Of a DNA stretch of 45,464 nucleotides, positions 28,629 through 45,294 are shown one piece after another. The notes beneath the pieces were generated by a model. That model was not told the DNA's origin and did no database searches. It worked only from the letters and a program-made list of their open reading frames with translations. The position numbers and the translations under genes were made by a program. Numbering within the stretch: the stretch's first letter is position 1; the number at the start of each line of letters is the position of its first letter. The DNA is from a virus. The stretch is taken from positions 1-45,464 of the IMG/VR virus record IMGVR_UViG_3300037245_002570. One strand, 5' to 3'.

Positions 28629-29984
28629 TTAACTATGCACATTAACCACCATCGAGTTATAAACCTCTTCCAACTCTTCTATCAAAATACTGTGTATCCC
28701 ATGTTCCATACATGCCTTCCCACTCTCCCCACTACCTGCACAAGGATCAATCATTACCCCTCCTTTCAATCCACTGTTGAGGATGAGGTGCTCGTATAGT
28801 TTTGCGGGCTTATGGGCAGGGTGGACTTTCTGTGTCCCATGATAGACAGGGATGGAAGGAAGGATGTTGCTGTTGCGACGTCTACCCTCATTAAACGGGC
28901 GTTTACCTTTCTTGAGGAAGAATATAGGCTCATAGTTTACAAAATAGTCATGCTCAAATTGTCTCCCACCACCACCACTTGCTCCCTTCGGCCAGATGAG
29001 GGGAAGGGGATCATAATCCCAGGGAGAGTTTTCTAGAATATAAAGCCATTGGGAATGGAGACTTTGAGGGGGTTTGTTATCTAGCTTGAGGACCATCCCG
29101 AAGAATAGGTATGCGTGTGCTCCATCGGTGGCGACATTGTAACATGCCTTAAGGAGTTTGATCATGGTAGCTTTCCATATGAGGCCGGAAGAATCATCAT
29201 AGTGTTTATCACTAGCAACCATAGATTTCTTATGAGCATCTATCCCATATGGAGGGTCGATGAAAAATAGATGAGCGAGGGGTTTCTTGATATTCTCTGG
29301 GAGCCAGAGGATACTGTCGGCGTGGATGCAGGTGGGGTAGGTTTTCTTCTCTGTGATCTCTCCAGGAGCTTGTTCTATCTTCTCAGTCTCAACTGTAAAA
29401 TCCTCCATCCCCTCAAGTGCTTGCCTCCGGGCTTTCTCAGCCATGAGTCTTGCACCTTCTTGTTCTTTATAATACTTCATCGCGGCGGAATAGGATTTAC
29501 ACTCGGTGATGATAATAGGATATTGATCTAGGATATACGCCATTTCGATAGCCCGCGAGACGGTTGAGGTAGATCTCTTTATTTCATTAGCTGTATCTTC
29601 CATCTTCCAACCTTCACTATGACCTCGTTTTGCTTCTCCGTGTTTTGATTGAAATGCTTTATGAAGTTCTCTGATAGCTAAACATTCCTCCCACCAATTA
29701 AAGTTTTCTCTATTAAGATTTTCTCCAAGCTCAAGAACTTTTTCATCGAGAGGAGATAAATCCGTGCGGATGAAGGCCGGAATCTCAGTCTCCTCGTTGA
29801 CGACGTAAGCACGGAGGCGTCGTTCACCACAGATGAGGATATTCTTCCCGTTGATAGTTATAGGATGCAGTAACCCGTTAGCCTTTATATCCGCAGCAAG
29901 CTGGGCTATGGTGGTGTCGTCGAATTCTTTTCTGAATCGGACCTTGGTTGTGATGGATTTGATAGGGATTAGTTTTGAGATCAT
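28629..29984 (-). CDS. ParB-like domain fused to DNA methyltransferase
   Basis: 451 residues. The N-terminal ~100 residues are a ParB/Srx-type domain: LIPIKSI, then FDDTTIAQLAADIKANGLLHPI and the signature GERRLRA (53-59). An HTH-like segment follows (KMEDTANEIKRSTSTVSRAI). The C-terminal domain is an amino-methyltransferase of N4/N6 type with motif IV DPPYG (243-247) and motif I DPCAGSG (413-419); this order with the target-recognition part between fits the beta class. Such fusions are common in phages and probably modify phage DNA against host restriction; the recognition site cannot be read from sequence. Confidence 0.85.
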   Translation of the reverse strand: MISKLIPIKSITTKVRFRKEFDDTTIAQLAADIKANGLLHPITINGKNILICGERRLRAYVVNEETEIPAFIRTDLSPLDEKVLELGENLNRENFNWWEECLAIRELHKAFQSKHGEAKRGHSEGWKMEDTANEIKRSTSTVSRAIEMAYILDQYPIIITECKSYSAAMKYYKEQEGARLMAEKARRQALEGMEDFTVETEKIEQAPGEITEKKTYPTCIHADSILWLPENIKKPLAHLFFIDPPYGIDAHKKSMVASDKHYDDSSGLIWKATMIKLLKACYNVATDGAHAYLFFGMVLKLDNKPPQSLHSQWLYILENSPWDYDPLPLIWPKGASGGGGRQFEHDYFVNYEPIFFLKKGKRPFNEGRRRNSNILPSIPVYHGTQKVHPAHKPAKLYEHLILNSGLKGGVMIDPCAGSGESGKACMEHGIHSILIEELEEVYNSMVVNVHS

Positions 29985-40141: not shown

Positions 40142-40302
40142 GATACTCCCCTCCAAGACCAGATAAAGCCAAATACAATAATTGTAAAGAATATCATTTG
40201 AATCCCTTTGACAAGGCCAATACTTGTTGGGGCATTGAGATCCATATTTATCATCAACAACAAAACTCCCCAACCTATCAGATTTCTAGTAGCTTTATCC
40301 AT
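40138..40302 (-). CDS. Tandem two-segment membrane protein A
   Basis: 54 residues: MDKATRNLIGWGVLLLMINM, a short loop, then IFFTIIVFGFIWSWRG. A paralogue of the next gene, with which it shares an ATGA overlap. Start ATG 40302 is preceded by GGGAGAATGG. Size and two-helix layout resemble holin/antiholin or small toxin-like membrane proteins, but the early-operon position argues against late lysis; superinfection exclusion or host-membrane modification are alternatives. Confidence 0.6.
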   Translation of the reverse strand: MDKATRNLIGWGVLLLMINMDLNAPTSIGLVKGIQMIFFTIIVFGFIWSWRGVS

Positions 40303-42784: not shown

Positions 42785-42955
42785 CTATATAACTTCCATT
42801 TCTCTTGCAATCCTGCGCCAGTAGTAGCAGACGGTTCTTTGATATGTCGCTTCGTTAGTGTGATGCCCAAGTGCGTCAAGTCTATGTGCTTCGGTTTGGT
42901 GTTCCTCGGCTTTTTTTGAGATGTCTGTGATTGTCTTGCGTATGTGTTCTTGCAT
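42785..42955 (-). CDS. First gene of leftward operon, small helical protein
   Basis: 56 residues: MQEHIRKTITDISKKAEEHQ, a His-rich turn (LDALGHHTNE) and a Tyr/Arg-rich C-terminus (RTVCYYWRRIAREMEV). GGAGG lies eight bases upstream, overlapping the end of the leader mini-ORF at 42960-43016. As the first gene behind the leftward promoter it should be made earliest. Role unknown. Confidence 0.6.
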   Translation of the reverse strand: MQEHIRKTITDISKKAEEHQTEAHRLDALGHHTNEATYQRTVCYYWRRIAREMEVI

Positions 42956-42959
42956 TAGG

Positions 42960-43016
42960 CTATCCTCCTAATTTTTGAGAATTATAATATTGTAATTTGC
43001 ATGTTATCTTTCCCAT
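42960..43016 (-). CDS. Leader mini-ORF of leftward operon (18 residues, predicted leaderless)
   Basis: ATG at 43016-43014 lies exactly six bases after the -10 box (43028-43023), where transcription should start, so the transcript would begin with AUG. The frame reads MGKITCKLQYYNSQKLGG and stops with TAG directly behind GGAGGA, the Shine-Dalgarno of the 42955 gene. Translation of the leader would bring ribosomes to that site. A direct repeat CATGTTA (43000-43006 and 43014-43020) overlaps the start. Inferred from spacing; no homologue known. Confidence 0.5.
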   Translation of the reverse strand: MGKITCKLQYYNSQKLGG

Positions 43017-43022
43017 GTTAAT

Positions 43023-43051
43023 ATTATACCATACTTTTCCATAATTGTCAA
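43023..43051 (-). promoter_or_regulatory. Leftward sigma70 promoter
   Basis: Perfect consensus on the minus strand: TTGACA (complement of 43046-43051), 17-base spacer, TATAAT (complement of 43023-43028). It faces the early operon. A degenerate operator-like palindrome lies about 30 bases upstream. Confidence 0.9.
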
Positions 43052-43079
43052 GTGATTTGTCGTATAAATATATATTACT

Positions 43080-43095
43080 ATAACGAAAATGTCAT
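43080..43095 (-). promoter_or_regulatory. Degenerate operator upstream of leftward promoter
   Basis: ATAACGAAAATGTCAT; its reverse complement ATGACATTTTCGTTAT matches the operator ATTACATTTTCGTAAT at 44764 in 14 of 16 positions. It is a candidate site for the same regulator. Confidence 0.5.
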
Positions 43096-43508
43096 ACCAT
43101 ATCATTATATCCTATATCTCCATCAACAATAGTTCCTAACAAGTTATCAACATTATACCCTCTTATCATACCTAACCCCAATGATACCAACCCTTTCCGA
43201 CATCCTTTACACATTCTAGGGGGGGGGCCTCGCCTATATATAAATATCTACTCTCCCGCATTCTTTTTCCACATCAGTATCAACCAACTTTGTTTACTTA
43301 TAATAATATATATATAATATAACTATATATATGTTAAAAAACCATCCCTAGTAGTAAAAATAGTTTATACCACTAAGGTAGGCGAGGGGTACCCCCCAAA
43401 ATGCGTAAAGATATTCATAACTCCAATCCCCACAACATCTTATCCCCCATAAGACCCCTAAAATGCCCCATAATCAACAAACTCCACCCTCCCTCAAAAC
43501 CCTTTCAA
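43096..43508. other. AT-rich non-coding control segment with long inverted repeat
   Basis: I see no gene here. The segment contains C-rich, G-poor stretches, a run of nine G at 43219-43227, an alternating TA tract near 43305-43332, and an inverted pair CCTCGCCTA (43228-43236) / TAGGCGAGG (43379-43387), followed after a few bases by a C-run. The arms enclose about 142 AT-rich bases. It lies between divergent promoters and could hold a replication origin or a long-leader regulatory structure. Confidence 0.5.
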
Positions 43509-43524
43509 ATTACATTATCGTAAT
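43509..43524 (+). promoter_or_regulatory. Operator-like palindrome upstream of rightward promoter
   Basis: ATTACATTATCGTAAT: perfect ATTAC/GTAAT arms with a six-base centre ending TC, identical in plan to the 44726-44827 cluster. It is 45 bases before the -35 box at 43570. Confidence 0.7.
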
Positions 43525-43569
43525 AAATCCCATCAGAGAAAATAAATCAAAAATACTTTCCCCTAGCTA

Positions 43570-43598
43570 TTGACTTTTTACAGACTTTGTGATATACT
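43570..43598 (+). promoter_or_regulatory. Rightward sigma70 promoter
   Basis: TTGACT (43570-43575), 17-base spacer, TATACT (43593-43598). It drives the 43660 gene. The leader contains a small GGGGA-CTT-TCCCC hairpin (43615-43627 region) before the ribosome site. Confidence 0.8.
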
Positions 43599-43659
43599 TA
43601 TTATAAGAGGTTAGGGGACTTTCCCCAAACCAAAAACCAAAGCAAGGAGAAAAATCATC

Positions 43660-44166
43660 ATGGCTACAAAATCCAAACTCGCCGAAGGTCAAACAGTCAA
43701 AACCGTTAACACGGAAAAGGAGCAGTCCAGCGTTGAGGGAAACAAATTCAGTGTTACCAAAAAGGGGGAAAGATGGACGAAAGACGAAAGCGGAAAAAAG
43801 GTTTCCGCCGGAATCTTTGAAGCATCTAGCTCTCGGCAGATTCTTACAGAGGATGCAATCGTGGCGATGGAAACTGCGATGGAGAATGTGGACGGTTTCT
43901 CTCTGCGCGAGATCGCTCTGGTCTTTAACCAAGTCCAGCGTGAGGATGCCATAAACTCCTGCAATTCCGAAATCGCCGGAGCTTCCAGCGCCGACCCAGA
44001 AGCAAAGAAAATTCGCGGCCTTGCGCGTACCATCGAAGCTTTCATAGAAGATGGTAATGCTGTCATGGTCAAAGCTCTGATCAAGGGTGCCAAGACTGGC
44101 GACAAGCTCGACATTCTCGAAAGAGTGCTTGGGCCTGAGAAGTATGCCGCTGCGCTTGCGATGTAG
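43660..44166 (+). CDS. Hypothetical early protein under its own promoter
   Basis: 168 residues: a Lys/Thr/Glu-rich disordered N-terminus (to ~55), then a helical domain (ILTEDAIVAMETAMENVDGF, ADPEAKKIRGLARTIEAFIE, TGDKLDILERVLGPEKYAAA). A single-gene unit with its own promoter, AAGGAG ribosome site and terminator. Its GC content and codon use are clearly higher than the surrounding AT-rich sequence, suggesting horizontal origin or strong expression selection. No named family. A long open frame on the opposite strand (43567-44238) has no ribosome site and is considered a shadow. Confidence 0.7.
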   Translation: MATKSKLAEGQTVKTVNTEKEQSSVEGNKFSVTKKGERWTKDESGKKVSAGIFEASSSRQILTEDAIVAMETAMENVDGFSLREIALVFNQVQREDAINSCNSEIAGASSADPEAKKIRGLARTIEAFIEDGNAVMVKALIKGAKTGDKLDILERVLGPEKYAAALAM

Positions 44167-44181
44167 ATAACTGAAAGGGCT

Positions 44182-44220
44182 GAGGGCTGAGAGATTAATT
44201 TCTTTCAGCCCTCTTTTTTT
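44182..44220 (+). terminator. Strong intrinsic terminator
   Basis: Stem GAGGGCTGA (44182-44190) with TCAGCCCTC (44205-44213), extended by AGA/TCT, followed by seven T (44214-44220). It ends the 43660 unit. Confidence 0.95.
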
Positions 44221-44231
44221 GCTCAAAAGGC

Positions 44232-44260
44232 TTGACAAATTTTGCAGCGTGTGGTATAAT
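44232..44260 (+). promoter_or_regulatory. Rightward sigma70 promoter
   Basis: Perfect consensus TTGACA (44232-44237), 17-base spacer, TATAAT (44255-44260), directly behind the terminator. The ATG at 44267 is six bases beyond the -10 box. Confidence 0.9.
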
Positions 44261-44266
44261 TAGAGT

Positions 44267-44299
44267 ATGGGAAACTATAACAGAGAGAATAGGAGATAG
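44267..44299 (+). CDS. Leader mini-ORF (10 residues, predicted leaderless)
   Basis: The frame reads MGNYNRENRR and stops with TAG at 44297-44299, embedded in the AGGAG-ATAG-AGGG ribosome site of the 44305 gene. The ATG is placed where the transcript should begin. It has the same architecture as the leftward leader at 42960-43016. Inferred from spacing only. Confidence 0.45.
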   Translation: MGNYNRENRR

Positions 44300-44304
44300 A
44301 GGGA

Positions 44305-44457
44305 ATGGAAAAGACATATCAAATTAATATTCAAGTCAGGTATCCGGGCGAACAGAAGCTTCTAATAGGTCATGTAATTATGATCAAAGCCTCTAGCTCT
44401 CTTGACGCATATCAAAAGGCTATAGCACAAGCAAGTCAAGAGCTTAACAAAGCCTAG
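44305..44457 (+). CDS. Small hypothetical protein
   Basis: 50 residues: a strand-rich start (EKTYQINIQVRYPGEQKLLI) and a C-terminal helix (DAYQKAIAQASQELNKA). Ribosome site AGGAG at 44291-44295. It is followed by a hairpin and then the operator cluster. Not recognised. Confidence 0.6.
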   Translation: MEKTYQINIQVRYPGEQKLLIGHVIMIKASSSLDAYQKAIAQASQELNKA

Positions 44458-44464
44458 CAAACTC

Positions 44465-44500
44465 AAAGCCTATCATTCCACGCAAAGAGTGGTAGGCTTT
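44465..44500 (+). other. Hairpin downstream of small gene
   Basis: AAAGCCTA (44465-44472) pairs with TAGGCTTT (44493-44500), with an inner CCAC/GTGG stem. There is no T-run on the 3' side beyond the stem's own TTT, so it may be a weak terminator or an mRNA-end stabiliser. Confidence 0.55.
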
Positions 44501-44725
44501 CAAAGGCTTAGTGATCAGACTAAAAGAGTATTTTGGTCCGAATGTCCTGTCTCGACAGTAAGCTCCACATTTGCTTTTTTAGGTTGTATCCTATACCTCT
44601 AGACACCCCCCCATACCTCTTGAGCCCCTCCATACATATATATACTTTCGTCTCAAATACCGGCTCTCACATTTCATTATTAGGCTATGGGATATAGTTT
44701 GATTTGGTTATATATTTTAGTTAAT
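44501..44725. other. Non-coding AT-rich segment
   Basis: No ORF of credible coding quality and no promoter is seen. It contains a short C-run, a TA-alternating stretch (44635-44645) and an AGGCTATGGGATATAG tract reminiscent of, but not matching, the dispersed 21-bp element. Confidence 0.4.
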
Positions 44726-44827
44726 ATTACGTTTTCGTAATTTATTACAATATCGTAATTGGGATTACATTTTCGTAATTTCCCCAACTAAATTACAATA
44801 TCGTTAGATTTATTACAATATCGTATT
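44726..44827 (+). promoter_or_regulatory. Cluster of five 16-bp operator/iteron-like palindromes
   Basis: Sites start at 44726 (ATTACGTTTTCGTAAT), 44744 (ATTACAATATCGTAAT), 44764 (ATTACATTTTCGTAAT), 44792 (ATTACAATATCGTTAG) and 44812 (ATTACAATATCGTATT). Start-to-start spacing is 18, 20, 28 and 20 bases, near two helical turns. The last site overlaps the -35 box of the 44826 promoter, and a degraded sixth half-site (ATTACGAAAG) lies in its spacer. The arrangement fits cooperative repression, or iterons of an origin. Confidence 0.8.
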
Positions 44828-44854
44828 GACAAAATTACGAAAGTGTGATATAAT
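44826..44854 (+). promoter_or_regulatory. Rightward sigma70 promoter overlapped by operators
   Basis: Perfect TTGACA (44826-44831), 17-base spacer, TATAAT (44849-44854). It is the nearest promoter to the terminase operon and, by position, may begin late transcription. The operator cluster would cover its -35 box. Confidence 0.9.
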
Positions 44855-44860
44855 CATAAT

Positions 44861-45028
44861 ATGGAAAGTACCTTAAAACGTGGTCGTGATATTATTATGA
44901 AGGTCTTTCAAGAATTAATCCATGCAGAACTTATGCACCATGTAGAAAATAATGCAGAGTCTTATCAAAGACTTAGAGATGCTAAGAAGACGATGAATAA
45001 AGTGAATAGACTATTTTCAGATGATTAG
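44861..45028 (+). CDS. Small helical protein from a predicted leaderless transcript
   Basis: 55 residues, highly charged and helical (MESTLKRGRDIIMKVFQELI ... YQRLRDAKKTMNKVNRLF). The ATG is six bases after the -10 box and there is no room for a Shine-Dalgarno sequence, so the mRNA probably starts at the AUG, as lambda cI from PRM does. By analogy it could be a regulator binding the adjacent operators, but I see no helix-turn-helix. A second ATG at codon 13 has only weak upstream purines. Confidence 0.55.
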   Translation: MESTLKRGRDIIMKVFQELIHAELMHHVENNAESYQRLRDAKKTMNKVNRLFSDD

Positions 45029-45054
45029 TGAGAATATTTGGGAATAGAGGAACA

Positions 45055-45294
45055 ATGACAAGGTATGCACATAAACCGGATGTTGTAGAAGCGGAAAGGT
45101 TTTGGCAGGATACCGCCCGAAAGCCGGATGGAGTTTGGATTGATAAGGATGGATGGTATATAAAGGGTGTTGATGGTAATAGGGTTCCTATAAATAATGG
45201 GGATTGGATAGTTCGGGCGGATGGGGAAGATAGAGTCTTCCATGTCGAGCCAGAAGTGTTTAAGCATAATTATATAGAGATAGTAAAGGGGTAA
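45055..45294 (+). CDS. Small phage protein with GDWI motif
   Basis: 79 residues from ATG 45055 (AGAGGA just upstream). The pattern KPDVVEAERF ... PDGVWIDKDGWYIKG ... NNGDWIVRADGE ... VFHVEPEVFKHNY matches a common small phage protein type (KPxxxEAxxF/W ... GDWIxxG ... F...Y) of unknown function, often placed near structural or packaging genes. It ends five bases before the small terminase start. Confidence 0.65.
   Translation: MTRYAHKPDVVEAERFWQDTARKPDGVWIDKDGWYIKGVDGNRVPINNGDWIVRADGEDRVFHVEPEVFKHNYIEIVKG

Follow-up and report, generated by a model that had tools for sequence, protein, structure and literature searches.

Consensus promoters with an ATG six bases behind the -10 box in a phage control region: a probable leaderless gene and two predicted 5'-terminal upstream AUGs

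The IMG/VR virus record IMGVR_UViG_3300037245_002570 (45,464 bases, analysed in its entirety and here called the window) contains, between about 42.95 and 45.03 kb, a control region in which three perfect consensus promoters are each followed, after exactly six bases (N6), by an ATG. This layout is far more regular than expected by chance. It is likely that the three are host sigma-70-type promoters, that the ATG at 44861 starts a leaderless gene, and that the ATGs at 43016 and 44267 are 5'-terminal upstream AUGs (uAUGs) on otherwise ordinary leadered mRNAs, with little effect on the genes downstream.

Promoters of the control region

The window phage is a tailed phage with TerL, portal and capsid among its structural genes, which lie to the right of the window start. 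The minus strand carries replication genes encoding a DNA polymerase, a primase/helicase and a ParB-methyltransferase, and the structural and replication blocks diverge from the control region. The exact pattern TTGACA-N17-TATAAT-N6-ATG occurs at 43051-43014 on the minus strand and at 44232-44269 and 44826-44863 on the plus strand, placing the ATGs at 43016, 44267 and 44861; it was found 0 times in 100 shuffles. The relevant features, including open reading frames (ORFs), some of them led by a Shine-Dalgarno sequence (SD), are as follows.

43023-43051, minus strand: promoter 1, TTGACA-N17-TATAAT, 12/12 consensus, TG before the -10 box; oriented leftward, towards the 42785 gene and on into the replication block
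42960-43016, minus strand: mini-ORF 1, 18 codons, MGKITCKLQYYNSQKLGG*, opened by the predicted +1 ATG; its TAG lies 4 nucleotides (nt) before the ATG at 42955
42785-42955, minus strand: the leading gene in the leftward unit, an ORF of 56 codons preceded by the SD GGAGG; no family match
43570-43598, plus strand: fourth promoter, TTGACT-N17-TATACT, 10/12 consensus, no N6 ATG
43660-44166, plus strand: SD-led ORF of 168 codons under the fourth promoter, no family match
44182-44213, plus strand: intrinsic terminator-like hairpin of 13 pairs with a T run (T7), separating the 43660 gene from promoter 2
44232-44260, plus strand: promoter 2, TTGACA-N17-TATAAT, 12/12 consensus, TG before the -10 box
44267-44299, plus strand: mini-ORF 2, 10 codons, MGNYNRENRR*, opened by the predicted +1 ATG; its TAG lies 5 nt before the ATG at 44305
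44305-44457, plus strand: 50-codon SD-led ORF behind mini-ORF 2
44826-44854, plus strand: promoter 3, TTGACA-N17-TATAAT, 12/12 consensus, TG before the -10 box; two operator-like palindromes overlap it
44861-45028, plus strand: ORF of 55 codons without an SD, its ATG at the predicted +1; a probable leaderless gene
45055-45294, plus strand: SD-led ATG gene in the frame of the ORF 45028-45294, with its start re-read from the sequence; phrog_419 match, function unknown

The three are the only 12/12 promoters found in the window, and a whole-window scan for matches of 11/12 or better lists just these. ATG occurs at a rate of 0.0165 in the non-coding DNA of the control region, which gives a probability of about 5e-6 for finding it in three of three cases at one given offset, and of 7e-5 for any shared offset from 0 to 15. 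Measured against the N6-ATG rate of viral promoters sampled regardless of N6 (14/145 and 13/244, about 7%), three of three still has a probability of about 3e-4. The discriminators of promoters 1, 2 and 3 are ATTAAC, TAGAGT and CATAAT, respectively. Because these differ, the three promoters are not recent copies of one module; the 17-base spacers agree at 9-10 positions, mainly in GTRTGR beside the -10 box, and a recent duplication within the window was rejected on these grounds. The three sites and their positions had been described correctly in the original prediction, as had the absence of an N6 ATG at the fourth promoter, where a leader of about 55 nt precedes the SD-led gene at 43660, and the 18- and 10-codon frames.

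Transcription usually starts at a pyrimidine-purine pair, with +1 about seven bases past the -10 box. The base preceding the A of the ATG is C, T and T at promoters 1, 2 and 3. With the N6 geometry, each predicted transcript start coincides with the A of its ATG, and we infer that the mRNAs would begin with AUG.

The ORF at 44861

The simplest reading of the ATG at 44861 is that it is probably the start codon of a true leaderless gene. The TATAAT of promoter 3 lies at 44849-44854, so the first T of the -10 box is 12 bp upstream of the start. Published leaderless genes have this T at a distance of about 12 bp from the start codon (Zheng et al., 2011; PMC3160421), and in Deinococcus the promoter motif of leaderless genes lies 6-7 bp ahead of the ORF (PMC12340547). 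The 44861 ORF resembles these published genes in having TATAAT, six bases and ATG without an SD (PMC3160421; PMC12340547). It differs in its setting, since the genes of the window phage are otherwise nearly all SD-led. No SD precedes the 44861 start, and the next SD-led gene begins at 45055, 26 nt past the end of the ORF. The codon usage of the ORF is a weak fit, with a z of 2.9 against shuffles that may contain stops.

The N6 spacing in other viral promoters

Two sets of viral promoters sampled regardless of N6 (n=145 and n=244) were used for comparison, and contigs picked for an N6 promoter were kept apart; the viral sample is still partly biased owing to contigs chosen for N6. Long ORFs, defined as having 40 or more codons, begin at N6 in 5/145 and 6/244 cases, while each offset from 0 to 5 gives 0-3 per set. 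They are in excess at N6-N8, rare at neighbouring offsets, and increase again beyond about N20, where SD-led genes begin. In contigs picked for one N6 promoter, 33 of the 201 other promoters open long ORFs at N6, and the leaderless habit therefore clusters by phage. Short ATG frames also exceed expectation at N4 and N0 in both viral samples, and the N4 excess is unexplained. The N6 excess of mini-ORFs is therefore not unique to this offset, and it is for long ORFs alone that the preference is clear-cut.

Three related contigs carry arrays of 7-14 small genes, in which every gene has a separate perfect promoter with an N6 ATG. These are found at L039:722-6604 (minus strand), L028:514-3182 (minus strand) and L092:6234-11629 (plus strand), with 14, 7 and 9 12/12 promoters, respectively. 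The array discriminators are mostly ACACAC or ATACAC, and a T4-like terminase is encoded in L028 and L092. No description of such arrays, with one promoter-ATG cassette per small gene, was found in the literature searched. A further contig, L079, has four such genes of a different make. At L039:5579 (minus strand) there is a 12-codon N6 mini-ORF, MKRESFCCCCWA, reminiscent of the polycysteine leaderless upstream ORFs (uORFs) of mycobacteria.

Relatives and the zinc-ribbon gene

Single-protein scans with the 168-amino acid ORF, the DNA polymerase and the portal protein, and DNA searches of known phages, gave no close relatives and none sharing the control region. Alignment scans with the polymerase and the primase/helicase identified distant relatives only, at about 25-33% identity. 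Two of these, G030 and G031, encode zinc-ribbon proteins of 67 and 65 amino acids that are 42% identical, and in both the aligned N-terminus lies on a promoter-N6-ATG without an SD; for G031, an in-frame ATG at N0 is an alternative candidate start. Further members of this family (RTCQECG...KCRKCGSE.LDYG; L492:1492, L497:2980, L493:2983, L494:2977 and L496:1124), namely those in L493, L494 and L496, have SD-led starts, so that the start looks leaderless in two phages and is SD-led in three. On this evidence, leaderless starts are in use in the wider lineage and are exchanged with SD-led ones, which bears on the lineage rather than on the window's own leaders. The ParB-like and DNA methyltransferase domains of the window are found together in one ORF (28629-29984, minus strand), and a homologue near the polymerase is kept in relatives.

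A host among the Saccharibacteria or other members of the candidate phyla radiation was suggested by pattern matches; a polymerase search of 287 genomes from this group was empty and, having no positive control, is uninformative. The pattern matches in Ruminococcus look like chance, as an N6 preference is not obvious by eye in the promoters listed.

Mini-ORFs and the placement of their stops

According to the predicted start sites, 43016 and 44267 have a 5'-uAUG layout, with a 5' AUG followed by a leader and an SD-led gene. The original prediction interpreted the two mini-ORFs as a device in which leaderless leader peptides ending at the next SD deliver ribosomes to the real start. This interpretation was not supported. 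Stop triplets are found 0-8 nt upstream of the start at most genes of the window phage, often where no gene ends, and mini-ORF stops 4-5 nt before a start are not evidence on their own because such stops are typical of this phage. At many gene starts in the window a stop triplet comes after the SD (GGAGAATAG and the like). With an in-frame TAG given, shuffled leaders of unchanged composition remain open in 15% of cases for leader 1 and in 50% for leader 2, before a factor of 1/3 for frame.

Among 27 viral N6 mini-ORFs with a downstream SD-led gene, the stop falls within -5 to 20 nt of the start in 8; in each of the two remaining frames of these leaders, the first stop is likewise this close in 8/27. 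Since the frame of the ATG behaves like the other two, stop placement is no different from what short leaders would be expected to give. A similar figure is obtained for ATGs at other offsets, with a stop near the SD-led start in 29/97. A stop at the next start beyond chance, as expected of a translationally coupled leader peptide, was not found in these leaders, nor in the scattered stops of the module described below. There is no run of codons for a single amino acid in MGKITCKLQYYNSQKLGG or MGNYNRENRR, as an amino-acid attenuator would have, and no terminator-like site is listed within the leaders; attenuation was rejected on this account. RNA structure was also rejected, the predicted folds of the leaders being no stronger than those of shuffles. 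Most likely the mini-peptides are by-products rather than parts of a designed ribosome-delivery device, and neither the peptide nor the exact stop appears to be selected.

A twelve-copy promoter module

The record IMGVR_UViG_3300033145_001595 (G360:C1, locus L016; 102,928 bp) contains 12 copies of a promoter module, TTGACAAATGACCTGTAGTATGGTATAATGCAGGC-ATG, on one strand at L498:430-15070. The promoter is nearly identical between copies; behind it come the ATG and usually a 34-46 nt leader with an SD, and the genes that follow are different. The ATG is found at N6 in nine copies and one base later in one, and is replaced by ATA in two. The A and T at +1 and +2 are kept in 11/12 leaders and the G is changed to A in two, so the start codon is less well kept than its first two bases. 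The leaders differ in length by non-multiples of three, and the mini-ORF stop can lie as far as 53 nt beyond the gene start or as much as 14 nt ahead of it. This speaks against selection of the mini-ORF itself, and is compatible with a role for a 5'-terminal AUG.

One such role would be recurrent selection for 5'-terminal AUGs at strong promoters of unrelated phages, where a pre-loaded 70S ribosome protects the mRNA and raises the local ribosome supply independently of peptide and stop. The window (two cases) and this module (nine in 12 copies) would be candidate examples; we regard this as possible, though rather unlikely.

Weighing of the explanations

In the favoured explanation, transcripts of the three promoters would begin on, or at most one base from, the A of the ATG. 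The AUGs at 43016 and 44267 would then be 5'-terminal uAUGs, with the real gene started by its SD about 38-61 nt downstream. Ribosomes of the 70S type would probably bind these 5' AUGs and yield some short peptide, and the effect of the uAUG on the real gene may be modest. As for the leaderless transcripts of the original prediction, the spacing does match the published geometry and marks leaderless genes in the distant relatives and in other phages; the start sites are themselves predictions. Some observations weigh against the favoured explanation. A start shifted one or two bases later would lose the AUG, and an SD precedes almost every other gene of the phage. No homologue of the 55-codon ORF was found that could confirm the gene, and the mini-ORFs have no homologues and no coding signal beyond being open. 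A perfect consensus promoter is present in almost none of the distant relatives, and most polymerase relatives lack a consensus N6 promoter.

That the leader peptides hand ribosomes to the next start by termination-reinitiation, with the stop placed at the SD for this purpose, is improbable. Both stops do lie 4-5 nt ahead of the next ATG, the same spacing is seen at real cistron junctions in the window, for example at 40295 and 40786, and a weak hairpin predicted for leader 1 (AUUAGG...CCUAAU) engages part of the SD and of the start in pairing and leaves the mini-ORF stop in the loop. The E. coli genes rcnR and ptrB are examples in which a 5'-uAUG has an influence downstream (PMC4965119). However, finding two of two stops near the start has p of about 0.09 at a base rate of about 0.3, close upstream stops are common in this phage, the frame counts given above are equal, and in the twelve-copy module the ATG is lost or shifted in 3/12 while the stop-to-start distance varies from -53 to +14.

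It is also doubtful, to about the same degree, that the ATGs are leftover start codons, carried by promoter-ATG cassettes of former leaderless genes that were later joined to SD-led genes. The alternation of leaderless and SD-led starts in the zinc-ribbon family and the repeated reuse of promoter-ATG cassettes within single phages would fit this origin, but neither the 42785 nor the 44305 gene yielded a homologue that starts leaderless, and the discriminators of the window promoters are unalike. Slightly less probable again is that the ATG is a by-product of a start-site constraint at the DNA level (a pyrimidine-A initiator and a purine-rich initial transcript) without a role in translation. 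The initially transcribed bases are similar at all three promoters (ATGGGAAA, ATGGGAAA and ATGGAAAG), the better conservation of A and T than of G in the twelve-copy module points the same way, and so does the excess of short ATG frames at N4 and N0. On the other hand, an initiator preference alone does not demand TG after the A, and one of the three window ATGs, like the long ORFs of the N6 peak elsewhere, opens an apparent real gene.

Relation to known systems

The closest described counterpart of the layout at 43016 and 44267 is the 5'-uAUG class of E. coli, which has the 5' AUG, leader and SD-led gene that are predicted here (Beck, Fleming and Janssen, 2016; PMC4965119). These mRNAs bind 70S ribosomes, and translation of the uORF varies from 0.09% to 99.7% of that of the downstream gene. 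Mutation of the uAUG raised, lowered or left unchanged the expression of the downstream gene, and the effect on ptrB was independent of uORF translation. The E. coli uORFs are 5-26 codons long, and their stops may overlap the next start or precede it by up to tens of bases; the window mini-ORFs fall within these limits. The E. coli class was established by mapped transcripts, lacZ fusions and toeprints, the host being known, whereas the window layout is a sequence prediction for an uncultured phage.

In mycobacteria a 5' ATG or GTG suffices for translation, and ribosome delivery by uORFs has been discussed as a possibility (Shell et al., 2015; PMC4633059). The idea of ribosome delivery is thus a known hypothesis, for which the window leaders are candidates that add no further evidence for coupling. 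Polycysteine attenuators are described as leaderless mycobacterial uORFs (Canestrari et al., 2020, as cited in PMC9031893). The mycobacterial uORFs resemble the predicted window leaders in that a leaderless mini-ORF is the first frame of the transcript ahead of a real gene; the window leaders differ in having no codon run, amino-acid signal or detected terminator or antiterminator. The cI mRNA of phage lambda, a control in the E. coli study (PMC4965119), is a leaderless phage transcript that begins at its AUG, but it encodes a single repressor and lacks the combination of uAUG and SD.

If the transcripts start as predicted, a phage that otherwise uses SDs turns leaderless at its strongest promoters, including one that reads into the replication genes. 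Leaderless mRNAs differ in their response to initiation factors and to kasugamycin, and the phage could therefore keep its first genes translated when SD-dependent initiation is impaired.

Palindromes and other repeats

ATTAC-N6-GTAAT palindromes with at most one mismatch occur seven times in the window, against 1.8 expected, and all are within the control region. These include:

44726-44849: cluster of five palindromes (at 44726, 44744, 44764, 44812 and 44834), two of which overlap promoter 3
42981-42996: one-mismatch palindrome inside mini-ORF 1
43509-43524: exact copy upstream of the fourth promoter

The palindromes are probable operators of a repressor, and the one in leader 1 could provide an alternative reason for the approximately 60 nt between promoter 1 and the gene at 42785.

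A hairpin, AAAGCCTA...TAGGCTTT, without a T run is found at 44465-44500 on the plus strand, directly after the 50-codon ORF. A 32-nt imperfect inverted repeat (78%; 43205-43236 and 43379-43410) flanks an AT-rich stretch and is accompanied by a run of nine G; it is possibly a replication origin or a packaging element.

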